From Pseudomonas sp. SJZ079 (GTDB taxonomy: Bacteria > Pseudomonadota > Gammaproteobacteria > Pseudomonadales > Pseudomonadaceae): a stretch of 64,000 bases of DNA. Below the pieces are notes generated by a model. It searched no databases. It was given only the letters and a program-made list of their open reading frames with translations, and had not been told where the DNA came from. Position numbers and translations under genes: made by a program. The stretch is taken from positions 248,001 through 312,000 of the forward strand of contig NZ_VIUH01000002.1 in NCBI RefSeq assembly GCF_007993865.1, read 5' to 3'. Of the stretch, positions 1,563 to 14,740 are shown piece by piece. Position 1 is the stretch's first letter, and each line of letters begins with the position of its first letter.

Positions 1563-2530
1563 GCTTCGTCCGGGGACAGGTTGAGCAGGCGCCGGGCGAT
1601 CTGGTTGGCCGCGCGCACCAGCGCATCGGTAATCCCGGTTTCGGACGCCGCATGACCGGCATCGCGAATAATCTGCAGCTCGCTGTTCGGCCAGGCCTGG
1701 TGCAGTTCCCAGGCGTTATCCAGCGGACAGATCACGTCGTAGCGGCCATGCACTATCACCCCCGGCAGGTGGGCGATTTTCGGCATGTCGCGGATCAATT
1801 GGTCGGGTTCGAGGAAGGCGTTGTTGACGAAGTAGTGGCACTCGATACGGGCAATCGACAGCGCCCGGTGCGCTTCGCTAAAACGATCCACCACCTGCGG
1901 ATTCGGCCGTAACGTGGCCGTGCGCCCTTCCCAGGCCGACCAGGCCTTGGCCGCATGCATCTGGGCGATCTGGTCGTTGCCGGTCAGGCGCTTGTAGAAC
2001 GCCTGCATCAGATCGCCGCGTTCGTCGACCGGGATCGGCGCCACATAGTCCTGCCAGTAATCGGGGAACATGCGGCTGGCGCCGGCCTGGTAGAACCACT
2101 GAAACTCCTGCGGCCGGCAGAGGAAGATGCCGCGCAGAATCAGCGCATGCACCCGCTCCGGGTGGCTCTGGGCGTAGGCCAGGGCCAGGGTCGAGCCCCA
2201 GGAGCCACCGAACAGCACCCACTTGTCGATCCCCAGGTGCGTGCGAATGCGCTCCAGGTCGGCGACCAGGTCCCAGGTGGTGTTGTTCTCCAGGCTCGCG
2301 TGCGGCGTCGAGCGGCCACAGCCGCGCTGGTCGAAGGTGACGATGCGGTACAGATTGGGATCGAAGAAACGCCGACTGAGGGCATCGCAACCCGCACCGG
2401 GGCCGCCATGGATGAACACCACCGGCAAGCCATCCGGCGAACCGCTTTCGTCCACATAGAGCACATGCGGCGCCTCTACCGCTAGTTCATGGCGGGCATG
2501 GGGTTTGATCTCCGGATACAAAGTCTGCAT
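1559..2530 (-). CDS. pip: Proline iminopeptidase
   Basis: 323 residues, alpha/beta hydrolase of peptidase family S33, which releases N-terminal proline from peptides in the cytoplasm. The oxyanion-hole motif HGGPGAG is at 41-47, the nucleophile elbow GGSWGS gives Ser110, and HGRYDVICP and AGHAAS near the C terminus supply the Asp and His of the triad. The motif FDQRGCGRS is also diagnostic. It is the first gene of a two-gene unit with dtd (four-base overlap) and is divergent from the lipoprotein gene at 2619. Confidence 0.95.
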
Positions 2531-2618
2531 GGTGCGCTCCCGTGTCTTGGCCTACGGTCCCTGTTGGGCGCCGCTCTGATGCTCAACCGGCATCATAACC
2601 ATGAATCAGGAGTTCGGC

Positions 2619-3053
2619 ATGTCAGTCCGGCAATTCGCCTTACCTTTCATACTGTTTTTCATTCTGCTGGCGGGCTGCGGTGGCCGCGATGATCCGCAAG
2701 CCGCACTGGAAGCCGCCGTGCAGCAGCTGCAAGACAACCTTGAGGGCAAGCAGACCCGCGCGGTACTCGAGCAACTGCACCCGCAGTTTTCCGCCCAGCA
2801 GAGCTTCGTGCGCGACTGGGCGCAGCGCACCATGACCCTGCTGTTCTTGCGCCACAAGAACATCCAGGTGCTGGCACTCAGTAAACACAGCCAGATCGAC
2901 CCGACCTACCGCGACAAAGGCCGCAGCGAGGCGCAGATCGCCCTGACCGGCGCCGCAGGCCTGATCCCCGACAGCGCACGGCATTACAGCGTCGCACTGG
3001 AGTGGTGGCTGGAGGGCGACGAGTGGAAACTGGCGCGGCTGGACTGGCAGTGA
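2619..3053 (+). CDS. Putative lipoprotein of unknown function
   Basis: 144 residues beginning MSVRQFALPFILFFI and ending the hydrophobic run in a lipobox LAGC, so Cys is residue 17 or nearby and the mature protein should be lipid-anchored. The mature part is mixed alpha/beta with a tail EWWLEGDEWKLARLDW that resembles small NTF2-like folds, in which a C-terminal sheet ends with W-K-L. That fold guess is weak. The start at 2619 is supported by AGGAG at 2608-2612; the ATG at 2601 would place the lipobox deeper and has no ribosome site. Confidence 0.75.
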   Translation: MSVRQFALPFILFFILLAGCGGRDDPQAALEAAVQQLQDNLEGKQTRAVLEQLHPQFSAQQSFVRDWAQRTMTLLFLRHKNIQVLALSKHSQIDPTYRDKGRSEAQIALTGAAGLIPDSARHYSVALEWWLEGDEWKLARLDWQ

Positions 3054-3089
3054 GGCCAGCGGCGCCCTCAGACGCAGCTGGCCTTGGCC

Positions 3090-5012
3090 TTACAGGTCCC
3101 AGTTGAGCGACAGGTTGATGCCGTGCTGGCGCTCATCGGTGCCGCGGAACTGGTAGGACGCGCGCAGTTGCAGGGTCTCGGCCAGCGCATGGCTGATGCC
3201 CACGCCGGCCAGGGTCTGGCCACTGGCCGGCGTATGGCCCTGCAACTCGAAGCGGTTGCCGGCAACCGAATTGAGGCCCAGGCGCAGGTCACGCGCGTCG
3301 TCCTCGAACTCGCGCTCGCGGGCGATTTCGGCGAACACTTGGGTCGCCGGGGCGAGCTGGTAGTTCATCTGCAACCCCAGACCCAGGCGCTTGCTGTCGC
3401 GTTGCTGGTCGTCGAAGTTGAGTGAGGTAGCACTCATGCCGCGCTCGCGATAGCCGTCCACCTCGACCTTGGCATAGTCGGCGCTGATGAACGGGCTGAC
3501 CCGCCAACCCGTGCCGGCATTGGCCAGGTCATAGCCCAGGCGCCCGGACAGAGCCCACAGCTGCCCATCGGTGTCAGCTTTTTCGCTGCGTTCGGTGATC
3601 CCCAGGGCGAACTGCCGGTTGAGGTCGCTGTAGTCCAGGTGGCCCAGACTGATGCTGCTATCGGCCCACACTCGGCCGTGCTGGTATTGGGCGAAGGCAC
3701 TGAGCAAGTAGCTGCGCAGGTCGTACTCCGAGTCGGCCTCGCCCGCCTCGAGCTCCTGCTCCTGCAGGCCCAAGGCCAGGCCCAGGCGCCATTGCTCGCT
3801 CAGGCGATAGCTGCTGCCCAGGTTCACGCCCAGGCCCGTGCTGTCGCCGTCGGCCACCGCCTGGTCACGCTGGAACTGCTGGCGTTGGCCGCTGGCGGCG
3901 ACGAAGCTACGCCACTGACCCACGGCCTGCCAGACGCCGCGGTCGGCCTGCCATTCGCTGCGCAGCTGTTGCTGGTGCGCGTTGAGGCTGGCCATGGCCA
4001 TTTCCGGCAGCAGCGACACCTGCCACGGCGCGCCAAGAATCGAGTAGATGTAGTCGGCGCTGATCTGCTGCACCGCCGAGGTGGGGTGCACGCCGTCATT
4101 GAACATCAGCCGGTCGGGATTCGGCGTGAGCCCGCCCAGGCCCCAGGTCGGGTCGGCCAGGCAGCTGTCACCGCTGAAGCAGACATCGGTCTGGCTGACC
4201 AGCGGATCGAAGCCGTAGCTCGCCAGGTCGCCCTTCACCTCGCTCAACAGGCCGCGGAAATTCAGGCGGATGACATTGCCGCCAAGGGCCGCGAGCTGGT
4301 TGCCCAGTTGGTCGTTGAGCAATCCCGAGGCGTTCGACCAGGCCGCGCGGAACCCCGAGGCGAAACCGGCCGGGGTCAGGCCCACATCCGGCAGATCCGA
4401 GACGATGATGGTGCGCGCCCCTGCCGCCTGCAGCGCCGCCACCCCGGCGACCAGATCGGCTGCCGCAGCGGCGGCGCTGGCCTGGTCGGTGACCACGAAT
4501 TGCAGCACATCGTTGCCGCCACCGTTGAGGTAGAACAGGGCATCGGGATCGACCCGCGGCACATCCACCAGGTAGCCGTTGCGGGTGCGGATGGTGCCGC
4601 CACCGGCATTCACCACCGAGCCGTTGAGCGCGGTGATAGAGGCGAGGATCTGATCGGTGCGGTAGCCGCCCACCGCATAGTTGCTCCCGTCCGGGTTACC
4701 GGTGAGCACCTGCGGCAGGATGGGGGTCGAGGGCAGGGCCTGCAGACCGAGCAGGGCCGCCAGGCGCTGGGTGGACACGGCGTCGTAGTACTCGGTGTTA
4801 TTGGACAAAAAGCCGGGGCCGGTACGGTTGGTGAAGCGCAGGCCTCCGGTAGGGTTGCCGCCCAACAGCGGACTGCCGATATCGGGGAACTGGCCGCTGT
4901 CGCTCAGCGAGTCACCGAAGATCACCAATTGCGAGTAGGGCATGGCGTGGGTCGCGGCCGGCAGGCCGGCGAGCAGTACAGCGGCGGTCAGGGTTTTCAG
5001 GGAGGGGGTCAT
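3090..5012 (-). CDS. estA: Autotransporter esterase EstA (GDSL family)
   Basis: 640 residues. A signal peptide runs to about Ala23. The passenger is a GDSL/SGNH esterase: FGDSLSDSG at 32-40 (nucleophile Ser35), the GGNDV block, and DGVHPTS with the catalytic Asp and His. The last ~280 residues are a beta-barrel autotransporter domain with alternating aromatic strands, ending NLSLNWDL. The family is outer-membrane anchored with the esterase displayed outside; in P. aeruginosa EstA affects rhamnolipid production and motility. Length is the same as characterised EstA (about 645). It is a single gene, convergent with the lipoprotein gene. Confidence 0.95.
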   Translation of the reverse strand: MTPSLKTLTAAVLLAGLPAATHAMPYSQLVIFGDSLSDSGQFPDIGSPLLGGNPTGGLRFTNRTGPGFLSNNTEYYDAVSTQRLAALLGLQALPSTPILPQVLTGNPDGSNYAVGGYRTDQILASITALNGSVVNAGGGTIRTRNGYLVDVPRVDPDALFYLNGGGNDVLQFVVTDQASAAAAAADLVAGVAALQAAGARTIIVSDLPDVGLTPAGFASGFRAAWSNASGLLNDQLGNQLAALGGNVIRLNFRGLLSEVKGDLASYGFDPLVSQTDVCFSGDSCLADPTWGLGGLTPNPDRLMFNDGVHPTSAVQQISADYIYSILGAPWQVSLLPEMAMASLNAHQQQLRSEWQADRGVWQAVGQWRSFVAASGQRQQFQRDQAVADGDSTGLGVNLGSSYRLSEQWRLGLALGLQEQELEAGEADSEYDLRSYLLSAFAQYQHGRVWADSSISLGHLDYSDLNRQFALGITERSEKADTDGQLWALSGRLGYDLANAGTGWRVSPFISADYAKVEVDGYRERGMSATSLNFDDQQRDSKRLGLGLQMNYQLAPATQVFAEIAREREFEDDARDLRLGLNSVAGNRFELQGHTPASGQTLAGVGISHALAETLQLRASYQFRGTDERQHGINLSLNWDL

Positions 5013-5146: not shown

Positions 5147-5959
5147 CTAGCGCCCGTAGTGCTCGCGGCCCCAATCGAGCATGGCCTGGAGCAACTGCCG
5201 AATGACCGCCTGAGTCGGCTTGGCCAGGTCCTCGCGGTAGCCGAAGGGCGGCTGTTCGTCCATGTAGTTGCACTGGGCCAATTCCAGCTGCACGGCATGC
5301 CGATGCTGCTGCGGCTGGCCGTAATGACGGGTGATGTGGCCGCCTTTGAAGCGCCCGTTCAGCGCATGGCTGTAGCCCTGCGCCTGCGCACAGAGCTGAC
5401 GCAGGCGCTCGGCCAAGTCGATCGCGCAGCTCGCGCCGCTGTTGCTGCCGAGATTGAAGTCGGGCAAACGCCCGTCGAACAGCCTCGGCACCTGCGAGCG
5501 GATCGAGTGAGCGTCGAACAGCAGCGCATAGCCGAACTCCTTCTGCAAGCGCGCCAGCTCGTCGGCCAGGGTCTGGTGATAGGGCTTCCAGATCTGCGCC
5601 AGGTAGCGCGCGCGCTCCTCGGTGCCGGGCGCCAGCCCAGGGCGATACAGCGCCTCGCCATCGAACAGGGTGGCGGGAAACAGCCCGGTGGTGGCACTGG
5701 CGTACAGCGGTGCGTCGTCCTGCGGCCGGTTGAGGTCGACGACGTAGCGCGAATAGTTGGCCGCCAGGGTGCTGGCGCCCAGTTCGGCGGCGCAGTGGTA
5801 GAGCCTGGGGATATGCCAGTCGGTGTCCGGCAGGCTGCGCGCCTGCTCGACCAAGCCGGCCTCGACCGCCGGAGTCAGGCGCAGGCCGGCGTGCGGCATG
5901 CTGATCAGCAGCGGCACGCGGCCACGGCTGAACTCGAACGCGTCATCGATCTCAGACAT
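5147..5959 (-). CDS. hutG: N-formylglutamate amidohydrolase
   Basis: 270 residues; hydrolyses N-formyl-L-glutamate to glutamate and formate, the last step of the five-step histidine pathway. The N-terminal [15 protein letters not shown] segment carries a conserved His, and [13 protein letters not shown] holds the second metal-binding motif of this zinc hydrolase family. The start at 5959 overlaps the end of hutI by eight bases, so it is the last gene of the hut operon. Together with hutF it shows that this organism uses the formylglutamate branch, as Pseudomonas does. Confidence 0.95.
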
Positions 5960-7160
5960 CGGTCAGCTCCTCAGCATGACGGATCACCCGTTTGCCCAGC
6001 TCGCCACCCAGCCAATAGGCCAGCTCAGCCGGCCGGGCGATATCCCAGGCGACAAAGTCGGCGACCTTGCCCACTTCCAGGCTGCCGTGGCTGTGGCCCA
6101 GGCCCAGGGCCTGGGCCGCGTGCAGGGTGACCCCGGCCAGGGCCTCCTCCGGGGTCATGCGGAACAGGGTGCAGGCCATGTTCATCATCAAGCGTAACGA
6201 CAGGGCCGGCGAGGTGCCAGGATTGAGGTCGCTGGCGATCGCCATGGCCACGCCATGCCGGCGCAACAGATCGATCGGCGGCAACTGAGTCTCGCGCAGA
6301 CAATAGAAGGCGCCAGGCAGCAGCACCGCCACGCTGCCGGCGGCGGCCATGGCCTGGGCATCGCTCTCATCCATGAACTCCAGATGATCGGCCGACAGCG
6401 CGCCGTAACGCGCTGCCAGGCTGGAGCCGTGCAACGAGGACAGCTGCTCGGCATGCAGTTTGATCGGCAGGCCCAGCTCGCCGGCGCATTGGAACACCCG
6501 CTCGACCTGGGCCGGGGAAAACCCCAGGTGCTCGCAGAAGGCGTCCACCGCATCTACCAGCCCTTCGCTGGCCAATTGCGGCAAGATTTCGGCGCAGACC
6601 AGGTCGATATAGGCGTCCGCCCGCCCGGCGAACTCCGGCGGCAGGGCGTGGGCCGCCAGGCAGGTGCTGCGCACCGTCACCGGCAGCAGCTCGCCGAGGC
6701 GACGGATCACCCGCAGCATCTTGCGCTCGGCGGCCAGGCTCAGGCCGTAGCCGGATTTGACTTCCAGGGTGGTGACGCCCTCGCGCAACAGCTGCCGGGC
6801 GCGCAGCAATGCGCCCGTCAGCAGCTCGCCCTCGCTGGCCTCGCGGGTGGCGCGCACGGTGCTGGCGATGCCGCCGCCGGCTGCGGCGATCTCGGCATAG
6901 CTGACGCCCTCGAGGCGCTGCTCGAATTCAGCGCTGCGGTCGCCGCCGAACACCAGGTGGGTGTGACAGTCGATCAGCCCCGGGGTCAGCCAGGCGCCGC
7001 CGAGGTCGACGGTTTCGCCATAGTCGCCGGCCGGCAGCTCGGCGCGCGGGCCGATCCAGACGATGTGCGCGCCCTCAGTGACCAGCGCCGCGTCCTCGAT
7101 GATCGAGTAACGGCCGCCGGCCATGCTGGCGGCATGGCAATGTTGCCAACGCTTTTTCAT
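5952..7160 (-). CDS. hutI: Imidazolonepropionase
   Basis: 402 residues; opens the imidazolone ring of 4-imidazolone-5-propionate to give formiminoglutamate. It belongs to the amidohydrolase superfamily: [13 protein letters not shown] gives the HxH metal ligands, KLHAEQLS the third His region, and [10 protein letters not shown] the catalytic Asp. The substrate-specific VKSGYGLS motif is present. ATG at 7160 overlaps the stop of the upstream hutH-like gene by four bases, and its own stop overlaps hutG, so it sits in a tightly coupled part of the operon. Confidence 0.96.
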
Positions 7161-8695
7161 TGCAGGCCTCCGATACTCGCCGCCACTCGCTCGAGAGCGC
7201 CGTCTTCACTCAGCAGGGCGGCGGCGCTGGCAATGTCCGGTGCCAGCCAGCGGTCGCTGTCATAGGCCGACACCCGTTCGCGCAGCAGCTCCCAGGCACA
7301 ATGGGTGCCGACGCCGAAGTGCTGCGCCTTGAGGAACTCGAAGGCCTGGGCCGCCAGCAGGTACTCGATGGCAAGAATCTGCCGGCTGTTGGCCAACGCC
7401 TTGCCCAGCTTCAACGCGGCGCTGGTGCCGAGGCTCAGGTGATCCTCCTGCAGACCGGAGGTGACGAAGTTGTCGAGCACCGCCGGCTGCGCCAGCTGAC
7501 GGTTCTCACCACACAATGCGCCGGCGACGTACTGCACGATCATCATCCCCGAGTTGACCCCGGGTTCTGCAACCAGAAAGGCCGGCAAGCCACTGACCAG
7601 CGGGTTGATCAACCGGTCCAGGCGCCGCTCGGCGATACCGCCGAGCTCGGCCACCGCGATGGCCAGCAGATCGGCGGCCATCGCCACCGACTCGCCATGC
7701 GGGTTGGCCTGGGACACCACCCGGTAGTCGTCCGGCGTGCCCAGCACCAGCGGATTGTCGGTGACCGAGTTGAGTTCGGTCTCGATCTGCTGCGCCGCAT
7801 GGGCCAGTTGATCGCGGCAGGCGCCATGCACCTGCGGTATCGCACGGATGCTCAGGGCGTCCTGGGTGCGCAGGCCACGGCTGCTGGCCACGACTTCGCT
7901 GCCTTCGAGCAGGGCCCGCAGGTTGTCGCCCACCCGCTGCATGCCAGGGTGCGGTTTCAGCGCGATGACTTCCGGGGCAAAGGCGTCGAGCTGCCCGCGC
8001 AACGCCTCGAAGCTCATGGCGCCGATCACGTCGGCCCACTGCATCAGACGACTCGCGTCGGCCAGGGCCAGGCAGCTCAGGCCGGTCATGCACGGCGTGC
8101 CATTGACCAGGCACAGGCCATCCTTGGCCCCCAGCTGCACCGGCTGCAGCCCTTCGGCCGCCAGCGCCTGCGTGGCCGGCACGACCTGATCGCGATAGCT
8201 CACTTCACCGACACCGAGCAGGGCGATGCCGACATGCGCCATATGGGTCAGATAACCGACCGAGCCCTGCGCGGGCACCCGCGGAGTGATACCGCGGTTG
8301 AGCAGTGCCAGCAGCATCTCGACGACCCCACGCTGCACCCCGGACTTGCCGTGACTGTAATTGGCGATGGCGGCGCAGATGATCGCCCGGGTCTGCTCGT
8401 TGGTCAGCGCCGGACCGACGCCGCAGGCATGGCTGAGCAGGGTGTTGCGCGACAGCTGGGCGAGCTGCTCGCCCTCCAGCAGCACGTTGCACAGGGCGCC
8501 GAGGCCGGTGCTGATGCCGTAGGCCCGCTCCCCCCGGGCGACGATGCGCTCGACCACCGCGCGGGCGTTGTCGATGCGCCCCCAGGCGACCGGCGCCAAC
8601 TCCAGTTGCGCGCCATGGCGGGCCACCGCCACGACGTCTTGCCAGCGCAAGGGCGCATTACCCAGGACTATGGTTTCGACAGACAACATCTGCAT
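7157..8695 (-). CDS. Histidine ammonia-lyase paralogue lacking the MIO triad
   Basis: 512 residues, aligned along its whole length with the HutH encoded at 11529-13061. Many family features are kept: Tyr59 in RAYGISTG, His89, Asn198 in LVNGT, Arg284, and the Glu of QEDHLS. However the loop that reads [11 protein letters not shown] in HutH is GSVGYLTH here: three residues are missing and no Ala-Ser-Gly remains to cyclise into the MIO electrophile. Tyr281 of HutH is Leu281, and the Phe of NFH is Pro (NPH). Annotation as an active lyase is therefore doubtful. The frame is intact and the gene is coupled to hutI, so it looks maintained. Pseudomonas hut clusters commonly carry a second hutH-like gene beside hutI; whether those also lack the triad cannot be checked here. 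Confidence 0.9.
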
Positions 8696-8701
8696 GCTTC
8701 C

Positions 8702-9517
8702 TTAAACAGTAGCCACACGGCGCTGGACGAAACGATCGACGTACTCATCGGCGGGCTGGTAGAGGATTTCCTTCGGCGTGCCGACCTGGATCAGCTGACC
8801 GTCCTTGAGAATGGCGATGCGATTACCGATGCGCACGGCCTCGTCGAGGTCGTGGGTGATGAACACTATGGTCTTGTGCAGGGCCTTCTGCAGTTCGAGC
8901 AACTGGTCCTGCATCTCGGCGCGAATCAACGGGTCGAGCGCGCTGAAGGCCTCGTCCATCAGAATGATGTCGGTATCCGCCGCCAACGCGCGAGCCAGCC
9001 CGACCCGTTGGCGCATGCCGCCGGAAAGCTGGTGCGGATAGGACTTTTCATAGCCCTTGAGGCCGACGGTGTTGATCCAGTGCAGCGCGCGCTCGGCGCA
9101 ATGGGCCTTGCTCTCGCCGCGCACCTTGAGGCCGTAGGCGACGTTGTCCAGCACCGTCTTGTGCGGCAACAGGCCGAAGCTCTGGAACACCATGCTGATC
9201 TTGCGCCGACGGAAGCTGCGCAACGCCTCCCGGTCGTAACGCAGGATGTCCTCGCCATCGACCAGGATTTCACCGCTGGTCGGATCGATCAGGCGGTTGA
9301 AGTGACGCACCAGGGTCGACTTGCCGGAGCCGGAGAGGCCCATGATGACGAAGATTTCACCCGGCTCGATAGCCAGCGACAAGTCGTTGACCCCGACCAC
9401 GCAGTCGGTCGCGGCGAGCACCTGATCCTTGCTCTGGCCCTGCTGAATCATCTTCAGCGCAGCCTCCGGGCGCGCACCGAATATCTTGAAGACGTTCTTC
9501 ACCACGATCTTGCTCAT
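8702..9517 (-). CDS. hutV: Histidine ABC transporter, ATP-binding protein
   Basis: 271 residues, an ABC ATPase of the glycine betaine/proline (ProV/OpuAA) type. Walker A is GLSGSGKST, the signature [15 protein letters not shown], Walker [13 protein letters not shown], followed by the switch His in FITHDL. The N-terminal [13 protein letters not shown] extension is typical of this subfamily; the C-terminal CBS domains of ProV are absent. Its start overlaps the permease stop by four bases. Linkage to hutXW and the histidine catabolic genes points to histidine uptake, as shown for HutXWV in Sinorhizobium. Confidence 0.92.
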
Positions 9518-10365
9518 TTGCTCACCTCATGCCGCGCACGGCCATAGGCCTGGGTGATGCGGTCGATGACCACGGCCAGGATGACGATGGCCAGACCGGC
9601 TTCGAGGCCGCGTCCGACGTTGAGGGTCTGGATGCCGATCAACACGTCCTCGCCGAGACCGCGGGCGCCGATCATCGAGGCGATCACCACCATCGACAGG
9701 GCCATCATGGTGGTCTGGTTGATTCCGGCCATGATGCTCGGCAGCGCCAGCGGCAGTTGCACGCCAAACAGCTGCTGCCAGCGGTTGGCGCCAAAGGCGT
9801 TGACCGCTTCCATCACCTCGCCGTCGACCTGGCGGATACCCAGGTCGGTGAGGCGGATCAACGGCGGCGCGGCGTAGATCACCGTGGCGAAAATCGCCGG
9901 CACCTTGCCCAGGCCGAAGAGCATCAGCACCGGGATCAGGTAGACGAAGCTGGGCATGGTTTGCATGATGTCCAGCAGCGGCATCAGCACCGCACGCAGG
10001 CGGTTGCTGCGGGCGGACAGAATGCCCAGCGGAATACCGATAATCACCGCGATCAGGGTCGCCACCAGCATCAGTGCCAGGGTCTGCATCAATTTGTCCC
10101 AGAGCCCGACCGCACCGACCAGGAACAGCAGGCCGACGATCGCCAGGGTCGGCAGCGTACGGCGTGTGGCGTGCCAGGCGACAGCGGCGACGATGGCCAG
10201 CATCAGCCACCAGGGTGTGCCGCGCAGCAGGCCTTCGAGGTTGACGATGGCCCACAACAGGGTGTCGGAGATGTGGCGGAACACATCTCCGTAGTTGGCC
10301 ACCAGATCGTCGACCCAGGTATTGACCCAATCGGCAATGGAGAAAGTGAAGCGTTCGGGGAACAT
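9514..10365 (-). CDS. hutW: Histidine ABC transporter, permease
   Basis: 283 residues, a ProW-type inner-membrane permease with about six to seven membrane spans. The BPD_transp_1 signature region [26 protein letters not shown] near residues 180-205 couples it to HutV. The start at 10365 (MFPERFTF) matches family starts; a longer frame reaching 10458 would translate the hairpin-rich intergenic region and is rejected. The gene is separated from hutX by 129 bases containing two stem-loops. Confidence 0.92.
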
Positions 10366-10420
10366 AGGCTGCTCTCGATCGGTTTGCTCTGGGAGGGCGG
10401 CGCCAGCCCCCGCTCCCCGA

Positions 10421-10494: not shown

Positions 10495-11466
10495 TTACAA
10501 CGCCGCGTCGATCTTCTGCGCCGCCTCTTCGCTGACCCAGGCGCGCCAGACGTCCGGGTGCTGTTTGAGGAAGAGCTTGGCCAGCTCAGGCGAATCGATG
10601 CGTTCCTTGGCCATCCGCGCCAGGTTCTGGTTCAGCAGGTCGATCGGCAGATTGACCTTCTCCAGCACCGCCACCAGTTCCGGCGCCTGCTCGTGGAAGT
10701 CCTTGGACAGACCGACCTGGATGCTGATGGTCTTGTCGACGCCAGGCTTCTCGTCCAGCTTGAGCAGATCGACCTGCCCCATCAGCGGCGTCGGCGACCA
10801 GTAATAGAACAGGATCGGCTCGCCGCGCTTGTAGCTCGACAGCACCGCGGCATCCAGCGCCGGCCCGGTGCCCGGGCGGAAGTTGGTGAACTTGTCTTCC
10901 AGGCCGTAGCTTTTCAGCATCTCGCTGTTGTCCAGCTCGCAGGTCCAGCCGGCCGGGCAGTTGTAGAAGCGGCCTTTACTCGGCTCTTCCTGGTCACGAA
11001 AGACTTCGGCGTACTGCGCCAGGTCGGTAATCGCCTTGAGGTTCGGCGCCTTGGCTTCGAGCTTGCGCTGGGCATCGCCCTCGACCACATAGCGCGGCAC
11101 GTACCAGCCTTCGGCCGCACCGACGATCGGCGCGCCGACCCCGACCACTTTGCCGGCCGCCGCGGCCTTGTTCCAGACCTCGCTGCGGCCCACCCATTCC
11201 TCGGCGAACACCTGAATGTCGTTGCTGCTCAAGGCGTTCTCCATGGTGATGGAGTTGCCCGGCAAGCTGTCGGTGGCGCAACCGTAGCCTTCCTTGAGGA
11301 CGATCTGCATCACGTCGGTGAGCAGCATGCCGCTCTCCCAGTTCAGCCCGGCGAATTTCACCGGTTTGCCCGATTCGCACCAGCCGGCGGCTTGCGTCGC
11401 GGCGGAAGTGGCGAACAGGCCGAGGGCGAGGACAGTGCCGAGCAGCGACTTAGGTTTTTTGTTCAT
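10495..11466 (-). CDS. hutX: Histidine ABC transporter, substrate-binding protein
   Basis: 323 residues. A signal peptide (MNKKPKSLLGTVLALGLF...TQA) ends near residue 27, followed by an OpuAC-type solute-binding domain (FAGLNWESGMLLTDVMQ and IQVFAEEWVGRSEVW). It delivers substrate in the periplasm to HutWV. The ATG at 11466 has GGAG seven bases upstream; a TTG four codons earlier is rejected. Homologues bind glycine betaine or histidine; the operon context favours histidine. Confidence 0.92.
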   Translation of the reverse strand: MNKKPKSLLGTVLALGLFATSAATQAAGWCESGKPVKFAGLNWESGMLLTDVMQIVLKEGYGCATDSLPGNSITMENALSSNDIQVFAEEWVGRSEVWNKAAAAGKVVGVGAPIVGAAEGWYVPRYVVEGDAQRKLEAKAPNLKAITDLAQYAEVFRDQEEPSKGRFYNCPAGWTCELDNSEMLKSYGLEDKFTNFRPGTGPALDAAVLSSYKRGEPILFYYWSPTPLMGQVDLLKLDEKPGVDKTISIQVGLSKDFHEQAPELVAVLEKVNLPIDLLNQNLARMAKERIDSPELAKLFLKQHPDVWRAWVSEEAAQKIDAAL

Positions 11467-11528
11467 CGGATACTCCAATCATTCAATGGGTTGGGTAACG
11501 GCAGTCGAGCAAAAGTGTTACGGCGACC

Positions 11529-13061
11529 TCAGAGACTCGGCAGCAGCTTCGCCGGCAGCAGGTCGTTCAGGCAGCGCGTCGCCAACAGCTGGCTGGCGGC
11601 CTCGATGTCCGGGGCGAAGAAGCGGTCTTCCTGGTAATGGCTGACCTGCTCGCGCAGCGCGGCGCGGGCCTGTTCCAGTTTCACCGAGGTCTTGCGCCCT
11701 TCGCGGAAGTCCAGGCCCTGGCAGGCACCGAGCCATTCGACGGCGAGGATGCCGCGCACGTTGTCGGCCATTTCCCACAGGCGCTTGCCGGCGGCCGGGG
11801 CCATGGACACGTGGTCCTCCTGGTTGGCCGAGGTCGGCAGGCTGTCGACGCTGTGCGGATGAGCCAGCGCCTTGTTCTCGCTGGCCAGCGCGGCGGCGGT
11901 GACCTGGGCGATCATGAAACCGGAGTTGACCCCGCCATTGGCCACCAGAAACGGCGGCAACTGCGACATGTGCTTGTCCATCATCAGCGAGATGCGCCGC
12001 TCGGACAGCGCGCCGATTTCGGCGATGGCCAGGGCCAGGTTGTCGGCGGCCATGGCCACCGGCTCGGCGTGGAAGTTACCGCCGGAGATCACGTCGCCCT
12101 CGGCGGCGAACACCAGCGGGTTGTCCGATACCGCGTTGGCTTCGACCGCCAACACCTCGGCGGCCTGGCGCAGCTGGGTCAGACAAGCGCCCATGACCTG
12201 CGGCTGGCAACGCAGCGAATAGGGGTCCTGGACCTTGTCGCACTTTTCATGGGAACGGGAGATCTCGCTGCTGGGCGTGAGCAAATCGCGGTAGGCGGCG
12301 GCTGCATCGATCTGTCCGCGCTGGCCACGGGCCGCGTGAATGCGCGCATCGAAGGGCGCCCGCGAGCCGAGCATGGCCTCCACGCTCAGGCCGCCGCAGA
12401 CCAGCGCCGCGGCGAACAGGTCTTCGGCCGCGAACAGCCCGCGCAGGGCGTAGGCGGTGGACACTTGAGTGCCGTTGAGCAGCGCCAGGCCTTCCTTGGC
12501 CGCCAGGGTCAGCGGCTCGAGGCCGGCCTTGGCCAAGGCCTCGGTGGCCGGCAGCCATTCGCCCTGGTAGCGCGCCTTGCCCTCGCCGAGCAGGACCAGC
12601 GACATGTGCGCCAGCGGCGCCAGGTCGCCGGAGGCGCCGACCGAGCCCTTGAGCGGGATGTGCGGGTAAACCTCGGCATTGATCAGGGCGATCAGCGCGT
12701 CGATCACCTGCCGACGGATACCGGAGAAGCCACGCGCCAGGCTGTTGACCTTGAGCAGCATGATCAACCGCACCAGATCATCATCCAGCGGCTGGCCGAC
12801 ACCGGCGGCATGCGACAGCACCAGCGAGCGCTGCAGGTTTTCCAGGTCTGCGCTGGCGATGCGGGTCGACGCCAGCAGGCCGAAGCCGGTGTTGATGCCG
12901 TAGGCGGTGCGGTTCTCGGCGAGTATCTGCTCGACGCAGGCGACGCTGGCCTCGATGGCCTCGGCGGCGCTCTCGTCCAGGGTGACCGTTACCGGCCCCT
13001 GCAGCACCAGGCGCAACTGGCCCAGGCTCAGTTGACCAGGCAGTAAGTTCAGCGCAGTCAT
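11529..13061 (-). CDS. hutH: Histidine ammonia-lyase
   Basis: 510 residues; deaminates L-histidine to trans-urocanate, the first pathway step. The MIO-forming triad Ala143-Ser144-Gly145 lies in [14 protein letters not shown]. Other active-site residues known from the P. putida enzyme are all present, one position later than in that protein: Tyr54, His84, Asn196, Gln278, Tyr281, Arg284, Phe330 and the Glu of NQEDHVS. It follows hutU by two bases on the same strand and precedes hutX by 62. This is the functional lyase of the cluster. Confidence 0.98.
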
Positions 13062-13063
13062 GT

Positions 13064-14740
13064 TCAGGCTCCTTTGACCGGGGTAACCATAGGTAGATTG
13101 AGGCCCTGTTCGCGGGCGCAGTCGATGGCAATCTGATAACCGGCATCGGCGTGCCGCATCACCCCGGTGGCCGGGTCGTTGTGCAGCACGCGGGCGATGC
13201 GCGCGGCGGCTTCATCGCTGCCGTCGCAGACGATGACCACCCCGGAGTGCTGGGAGAAGCCCATGCCGACGCCGCCACCGTGGTGCAGCGAGACCCAGGT
13301 GGCGCCGCTGGCGGTGTTCAGCAGGGCGTTGAGCAGCGGCCAGTCGGACACCGCATCGGAGCCATCGGCCATCGCCTCGGTTTCGCGATTGGGGCTGGCC
13401 ACCGAGCCGGAATCCAGGTGGTCGCGGCCGATCACCACCGGTGCGGACAGCTCGCCACTGCGGACCATTTCGTTGAAGGCCAGGCCGAGCTTGGCGCGCT
13501 GGCCCAGGCCGACCCAGCAGATACGTGCCGGCAGACCCTGGAAGGCGATGCGTTCACGGGCCATGTCCAGCCAATGATGCAGATGGGCATCGTCAGGGAT
13601 CAGCTCCTTGACCTTGGCGTCGGTCTTGTAGATGTCCTCGGGGTCGCCGGACAAGGCCACCCAACGGAACGGGCCGACGCCGCGGCAGAACAGCGGACGA
13701 ATATAGGCCGGAACGAAGCCGGGGAAGGCGAAGGCATTGCTCACGCCCTCTTCCTTGGCCATCTGGCGGATGTTGTTGCCGTAGTCGAAGGTCGGCACGC
13801 CCTGCTGCTGGAAGGCCAGCATGGCGCGCACGTGCACGGCCATCGACTGCTTGGCGGCCTTGACCACTTCGGCCGGCTGCAACTGCGCCTTGGCACGGTA
13901 CTCGTCCCAGCTCCAGCCGATCGGCAGGTAGCCATTGAGCGGATCGTGGGCGCTGGTCTGGTCGGTGACCATGTCCGGGCGCACGCCACGCTTGACCAGT
14001 TCCGGAAGGATCTCGGCGGCGTTGCCACACAGGGCGATGGAAATCGCCTTGCCCTCGGCGCAGTACTTCTCGAGGCGCGCCAGGGCGTCGTCGAGATCCT
14101 TGGCCTGCTCGTCGACGTAGCGGGTCTGCAGGCGGAAGTCGATGCGGCTCTGCTGACACTCGATGTTCAGCGAGCAGGCGCCGGCCAGGGTCGCCGCCAG
14201 CGGCTGCGCACCACCCATACCGCCGAGACCGGCGGTGAGTACCCAGCGGCCGGTGAGGTCGCCACCAAAATGCTGGCGGCCGGCCTCGACGAAGGTCTCG
14301 TAGGTACCCTGGACGATGCCCTGGCTGCCGATATAGATCCAGCTGCCGGCGGTCATCTGGCCGTACATCGCCAGGCCCTTGGCATCCAGCTCGTTGAAGT
14401 GTTCCCAGGTCGCCCAGTGCGGCACCAGGTTGGAGTTGGCGATCAGCACGCGCGGCGCGTTGCTGTGGGTCTTGAATACGCCGACCGGCTTACCGGATTG
14501 CACCAGCAGGGTCTCGTCGTCGTTCAGTTGCTTGAGGCTCTCGACGATCTGGTCGTAGCACTCCCAGTTGCGCGCGGCGCGGCCGATGCCGCCATACACC
14601 ACCAGCTCCTTGGGGTTCTCCGCCACTTCCGGGTCGAGGTTGTTCATCAACATGCGCAGCGGCGCCTCGGTCATCCAGCTCTTGGCGCTCAACTGGGTGC
14701 CACGCGGGGCGCGAATTTCGGTGTCACGGAATTTGGTCAT
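13064..14740 (-). CDS. hutU: Urocanate hydratase
   Basis: 558 residues, the usual length of urocanase. It converts urocanate to 4-imidazolone-5-propionate with tightly bound NAD+ as electrophile. Diagnostic blocks are [12 protein letters not shown], the glycine-rich [20 protein letters not shown] region near residues 175-190, and [17 protein letters not shown] near the C terminus. The ATG at 14740 follows a GAGGAG-type site. It is 39 bases downstream of the transporter gene and two bases before hutH. Confidence 0.98.

Follow-up and report, generated by a model that had tools for sequence, protein, structure and literature searches.

A HutH-like protein of Pseudomonas without the cofactor-forming triad, and its possible role in the breakdown of imported hercynine

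In a 64,000-nucleotide stretch of the genome of Pseudomonas sp. SJZ079 (contig NZ_VIUH01000002.1, positions 248,001 to 312,000; hereafter the window), a cluster of histidine utilization (hut) genes encodes two proteins of the histidine ammonia-lyase (HAL) family, one of which, P0002, lacks the Ala-Ser-Gly triad that forms the cofactor 4-methylideneimidazole-5-one (MIO). What might an intact gene for such a protein do beside a hutH that carries the triad? A preliminary description of the locus had suggested that P0002 binds histidine or urocanate as a sensor, forms mixed tetramers with HutH, or catalyses a different reaction. The genomic context favours a different reaction. We give somewhat better than an even chance to P0002 being an MIO-free lyase of the HAL fold that, like ergothionase, eliminates trimethylamine, here from imported hercynine, to give urocanate.

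When P0002 was aligned with the HutH of the window (11529-13061), the two matched along their whole length, and P0002 proved to be three residues shorter, exactly at the MIO-forming Ala-Ser-Gly, as had been described. The gene and the codons concerned, the latter placed by the alignment, are:

7157 to 8695, minus strand: gene of the MIO-less HutH-like lyase P0002 (512 residues, ATG start, frame intact)
8252 to 8257, minus strand: codons of Gly147-Tyr148, facing Gly-Ala-Ser-Gly of HutH
7853 to 7855, minus strand: codon of Leu281, replacing HutH Tyr281 (Tyr280 of P. putida HAL)
7700 to 7702, minus strand: codon of Pro332, replacing HutH Phe330 (Phe329 of HAL)

The preliminary description had the coordinates of the gene right (the strand was not given), as well as the changes to Leu281 and Pro332 and the retention of Tyr59, His89, Asn198, Arg284 and the Glu now numbered 417. 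Residues are given below in P. putida HAL numbering, in which we take Tyr280 to be catalytic and Tyr53, His83, Asn195, Arg283 and Glu414 to be substrate residues. The Tyr280 position holds Leu in all 28 rows of the MIO-less clade defined below and in 4/4 ergothionase-like rows, and Tyr in 42/42 rows of MIO HutH. At the Phe329 position the clade has a smaller residue, Pro (19 rows) or Ala (9 rows), while Phe is found in 42/42 MIO HutH and 3/4 ergothionase-like rows. Tyr53, His83, Asn195, Gln277, Arg283 and Glu414 are kept in 28/28 clade rows, and the residue after GSVG (Tyr148 in P0002) is Tyr in 30/30 MIO-less rows, 28 of the clade and two outlying. In an excerpt of a study of P. putida HAL (PMC3903478), the triad is termed strictly conserved, the Ser143Ala change lowers activity more than 1000-fold, and 'MIO-less' denotes the Ser mutant. 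Judged by its sequence, P0002 is by cofactor not a HutH.

To follow the change among relatives, named genomes were scanned with six sequence patterns, which gave at least 80 Pseudomonas loci among the matches listed (a single P. costantinii strain contributes three of them, as separate contigs). All 80 read GSVGY[LI] and have an open frame of at least 495 residues; one of the patterns covers the triad stretch itself and may favour GSVGY loci, and a pattern-free search of whole genomes found the same motif in 29/29 additional Pseudomonas loci. Of 249 genus genomes, 177 have an orthologue (E 1e-180 or better). When a MIO-less profile was run against 398 genomes of the phylum, 23 scored at least 666 bits and the next match 510; GS[VA]GY replaces the triad in 23/23 genomes above this gap, and the triad is present in the 7/7 matches read below it (L177-L183). 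The scoring of triad and Tyr281 that had been proposed for HutH-like relatives thus gave uniform answers, GSVGY[LI] in every listed locus and Leu in every clade row, and a sequencing error hiding an Ala-Ser-Gly, also raised there, is excluded by the recurrence of the change in 80/80 listed, 29/29 and 23/23 loci. A pseudogene was likewise rejected and no decay is claimed, the frames being open at 511 and at least 495 residues despite '1 TAG' flags (genomes G324, G359) and a stop in locus L127, and joint decay of lyase and importer was dropped since these same frames are open. The median ratio of nonsynonymous to synonymous substitution rates (dN/dS; 300 sampled pairs) was 0.14 for the lyase (80 sequences) and 0.087 for the HutH of the same loci (61 sequences); because both the lyase value is far below 1 and the HutH value lower still, the lyase is under purifying selection, weaker than that on HutH.

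In a tree built without the triad columns, the 28 MIO-less rows formed one clade (100/100), with 42 MIO HutH rows (96/95) and four ergothionase-like rows (100/100) in clades of their own. The MIO-less clade spans seven GTDB families plus plasmids of Rhizobium, Sinorhizobium and Erwinia and, given this spread, is no recent copy of Pseudomonas HutH. The observation of triad loss is sound, and the loss is older and wider than the preliminary description supposed, not being confined to Pseudomonas. Adding ten outgroup rows left the clade intact (12 rows, 100/100), and a Klebsiella plasmid protein (L152) grouped with the ergothionase-like rows (96/90); a single clade of all MIO-less rows was not rejected (approximately unbiased test, p-AU 0.175; long-branch row L231_11682 omitted). 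The proteins of L152 and L202 lie outside the 28-row clade and are excluded from its counts. P0002 falls outside the ergothionase-like clade, of whose four rows two match ergothionase (PDB 6s7j) best and two were named by motif and tree, and its sequence does not show it to be an ergothionase. Three further relatives were seen. At L202:8958-10532 (-) a MIO-less protein (GSVGYLGPEGHL) lies by a HisJ-type ATP-binding cassette (ABC) importer and keeps HAL Tyr280 and Phe329. At L231:11682-13676 (+) a distant lyase adjoins hutU; its motif, GSIGASD, lacks one residue at the triad. At L200:5013-6551 (-) an ergothionase-like lyase with GSLGAAD (268 bits to 6s7j, against 238.5 to the best HAL) has in its vicinity a betaine ABC importer of OpuC type and a hut cluster that includes a P0002-type MIO-less lyase and a BCCT carrier.

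What the gene keeps company with is the second line of evidence. In the window, eight genes run in one direction, in the order hutU, hutH, hutX, hutW, hutV, the P0002 gene, hutI and hutG. The neighbours are:

13064 to 14740, minus strand: hutU, urocanate hydratase (named by likeness to annotated hutU)
11529 to 13061, minus strand: true HutH, P0003, carrying the triad
10495 to 11478, minus strand: HutX-like binding protein (OpuAC domain, PF04069)
9514 to 10377, minus strand: HutW-like permease (start unsettled, open frame to 10458; ChoW and ProW are the nearest models, both below cut-off)
8702 to 9517, minus strand: HutV-like ATPase of the betaine/proline/choline family (TIGR01186 above cut-off)
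5952 to 7160, minus strand: hutI, imidazolonepropionase (named by likeness; its start overlaps the P0002 stop)
5147 to 5959, minus strand: hutG, N-formylglutamate deformylase (named by likeness)

The ATG of hutI and the stop of the P0002 gene overlap as ATGA, which agrees with the coupling described earlier. The order HutX, HutW, HutV, lyase recurs in 79 of the 80 listed Pseudomonas loci, the remaining one (L140) beginning 138 bases before the lyase. Trp47, Trp125 and Trp227 of HutX align to Trp residues of a solved glycine betaine/proline-binding protein (7yle) and, with other Trp, are invariant in 93/93 aligned relatives. Among the 249 genus genomes, counted at thresholds of our own choosing and as they stand, uncorrected for relatedness, 168 had both the lyase and HutX (E 1e-150 or better), 9 the lyase only, 1 HutX only and 71 neither. 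The lyase-only genomes carry other importers: four (L204-L207) keep HutW and HutV without HutX, two of them also with a HisJ-type ABC importer; two (L208, L209) have a HisJ-type ABC importer; and in three (L210-L212) a BCCT carrier separates hutU from the lyase (by Pfam for L210; the others score 999 and 939 bits to it), an arrangement also found in L199 and L200. The sole genome with HutX and no lyase (G316) has HutXWV after hutC at L213:8517-11224 (+), with no lyase found behind.

Outside Pseudomonas, 15 of the 17 loci have an importer next to the lyase (ProU-type in 5, HisJ-type in 8, BCCT in 2), compared with one of 22 MIO-HutH control loci (L222, with binding protein, permease and ATPase). 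Twenty controls were taken one per family from the phylum match list, before their neighbours were seen, and L201 and L203 were added; an OpuAC protein or BCCT carrier was found in 0/22, and a lone ABC ATPase match in 7/22. Since importer families swap beside one enzyme, this exchange points to one imported substrate, and two of the three families on the clade's side (ProU-type ABC and BCCT) are betaine transporter families. The plasmid locus L144 has a single binding-protein gene with no permease annotated nearby; the plasmid loci L147, L148, L149 and L151 are unannotated and fall outside this reading of neighbours. In four loci (L078, L086, L102 and L106, from P. syringae, P. cerasi, P. congelans and P. 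avellanae) a further BCCT-like gene (~163 bits) was seen near 1860-3960 (-), ~5 kb from the lyase and on the opposite strand.

Lyase and importer also occur by themselves. In 11 of the 80 listed Pseudomonas loci, a search of the stretch found a LysR gene, HutXWV and the lyase but no further hut genes; the LysR gene is divergent from HutX in 11/11 of these and was found in 0/69 of the others. One such LysR-type gene, at L115:5246-6160 (-), is a candidate regulator of the module. On Klebsiella plasmids, the MIO-less relative L152 (43%) lies after OsmV-OpuBB-OpuBB-OpuCC genes, and its cluster also includes hutG, imidazolonepropionase (hutI) and urocanate hydratase (hutU), to which a second record adds HutC, HutD and formimidoylglutamate deiminase. 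No other member of the lyase family occurs in the 37-kb stretch, a count that covers this plasmid stretch alone. The binding protein there matches EgtUC, which binds ergothioneine, about as well as other binders.

The substrate of P0002 would be an imported histidine with a quaternary ammonium group, most probably hercynine (trimethyl-L-histidine, or histidine betaine), which fungi and actinobacteria make on the way to ergothioneine. For MIO to act, a free amine must form an adduct with it; this is closed to a quaternary nitrogen, and trimethylamine leaves unaided. Because hercynine would form no such adduct and its nitrogen would leave without MIO, the triad would be useless on it. P0002 could convert hercynine to trimethylamine and urocanate, the latter passing to the nearby hutU and the other hut enzymes. 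With the triad and Phe329 gone, the freed space may house the trimethylammonium group, and Arg283, His83 and Glu414 could still hold the carboxylate and the imidazole; substrate, reaction and acid/base residues are all inferred. Slightly above even, in our estimate, is the chance of the broader proposal, that an unnamed family of hercynine trimethylamine-lyases exists under the HutH name, a MIO-free HAL branch that would open the hut pathway to histidine betaine and have importers of its own (HutXWV and BCCT, plus OpuC-type importers in a related branch), part of which would have been mistaken for histidine importers.

Several observations weigh against this assignment. P0002 scores 356.9 bits to HAL (7tqr) and 212.1 to ergothionase, and the pockets of the two MIO-less groups differ: Asn195 is kept in the clade and lost in 3/4 ergothionase-like rows, with the reverse at Phe329. 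A dead enzyme could likewise lose the triad and Tyr280. The clade is patchy, P0002 reaching more than 400 bits in one of 274 genomes sampled evenly from the class, the window's own. For the importers, the contrast of 15/17 with 1/22 (Fisher p 8e-8) concerns related loci, and the importer references were drawn from MIO-less loci, so that importers of other kinds beside control genes would go unseen. Two loci outside the genus (L196 and L198) have no importer in the stretch, and HisJ-type importers (SBP_bac_3) make up 8 of the 15; that family serves ordinary amino acids and offers no argument for betaines. The OpuC-type importers stand by the Klebsiella protein and one ergothionase-like protein, not by members of the clade. 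Finally, a passage of PMC8871633 describes HutXWV as part of histidine uptake.

Other explanations can be read from the same data. A pseudoenzyme, binding histidine or urocanate and either sensing that ligand or modulating HutH, perhaps within mixed tetramers, would account for a pocket that is kept while MIO and Tyr280 are lost; the lyase does adjoin hutH in many Pseudomonas loci, and HAL active sites are assembled from several subunits. We nevertheless regard it as unlikely: of the 169 phylum genomes that gave a match, 146 gave no MIO-less one, the lyase tracks importers, 11/80 loci showed no other hut gene in the stretch, and the Klebsiella protein is the lone lyase of its 37-kb stretch. 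The preliminary description thus holds in that the pocket is kept and MIO lost, while its sensor and its mixed tetramers with HutH gain no support. A trifle less probable again is an imported imidazole compound that is not trimethylated and bears another good leaving group, handled by a lyase or aminomutase reaction; the HisJ-type importers in 8/17 loci and the retained imidazole and carboxylate pocket would suit it, and the ProU-type ABC and BCCT importers by the clade, with OpuC-type ones by related MIO-less lyases, speak for betaines instead.

That P0002 is itself an ergothionase, converting ergothioneine to thiourocanate and trimethylamine, seems improbable to us. MIO loss and the change of Tyr280 to Leu are common to both, and betaine-type importers would fit ergothioneine, a trimethylated histidine, but the clade stands apart from the ergothionase-like rows, its triad is shortened by three residues and not one, and L200 has a P0002-type protein plus a separate ergothionase-like one. 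The P0002 gene also lies near hutU, whose substrate is urocanate, whereas thiourocanate is to our knowledge no hut intermediate. Least probable is a decaying HutH duplicate without function: its dN/dS exceeds that of HutH, but the value is far below 1, the 80/80 listed frames are intact, residues are fixed across the clade, and the clade's position is outside the MIO HutH rows.

The hercynine assignment, if true, would mean renaming a gene found in 177/249 sampled genus genomes. P0002 matches PF00221 at 547 bits (cut-off 27.3; residues 16-472 covered) and TIGR01225, the NCBI HutH equivalog model, at 542.8 bits, passing the cut-off of 539.15 by 3.6 bits; because TIGR01225 accepts it, annotation as histidine ammonia-lyase is likely for P0002 despite its inability to make MIO. 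The cut-off, which admits a MIO-less protein, is no test for the triad. The window's own genome has three PF00221 proteins, and the third (L003) was rejected as an ergothionase on its own motif residues. The assignment would further describe a bacterial route by which hercynine yields urocanate, which induces hut genes, and trimethylamine as the by-product. It would also show an MIO enzyme dispensing with its cofactor once the substrate bears a good leaving group. Among the matches listed from open-licence papers, none concerned hercynine breakdown or this gene's missing triad.

Among known systems, the same gene has probably been met under other names. By its place after hutXWV we take PA5093 of P. 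aeruginosa to be this gene, and by gene order PA5093 would be a second hutH and PA5091 hutG; the orthologue in P. aeruginosa PA7 was read directly (L077). PA5093 is named hutG in a passage of PMC12772324, and HutC regulons often have several HutH paralogues according to an excerpt of PMC5343134. By position after hutXWV, hutH1 of P. fluorescens SBW25 is also the same gene; part of PMC8871633 describes it, with no mention of the triad, as a histidase that is dispensable on histidine, a dispensability that action on hercynine would explain.

An AlphaFold model of the P0002 monomer (mean predicted local distance difference test score, pLDDT, 83.4; predicted template modelling score, pTM, 0.87; weak at 145-148, 275-278 and 406-420) has the HAL fold, with scores for tyrosine aminomutase (Z 40.5), ergothionase (38.9) and P. 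putida HAL (38.7) too close to discriminate. With HutH (EC 4.3.1.3, PDB 1b8f; Z 38.7, root-mean-square deviation (rmsd) 2.6, 487 residues aligned), P0002 shares the fold, the operon, the histidine-binding residues and, barely above its cut-off, TIGR01225; it differs in having no Ala-Ser-Gly, hence no MIO, and in the replacement of Tyr280 and Phe329. Ergothionase (ergothioneine trimethylamine-lyase, PDB 6s7j; Z 38.9, rmsd 2.7, 480 aligned) is described in an excerpt of PMC13405746 as HAL-like, lacking MIO and releasing trimethylamine. Like P0002 it has the HAL fold, no MIO and Leu at the Tyr280 position (QDPLSFR in ergothionase). It belongs to a separate clade and its triad is shortened by one residue, that of P0002 by three, and P0002 has Phe329 replaced and Asn195 kept; by our proposal the two would share a substrate class, trimethylated histidine.
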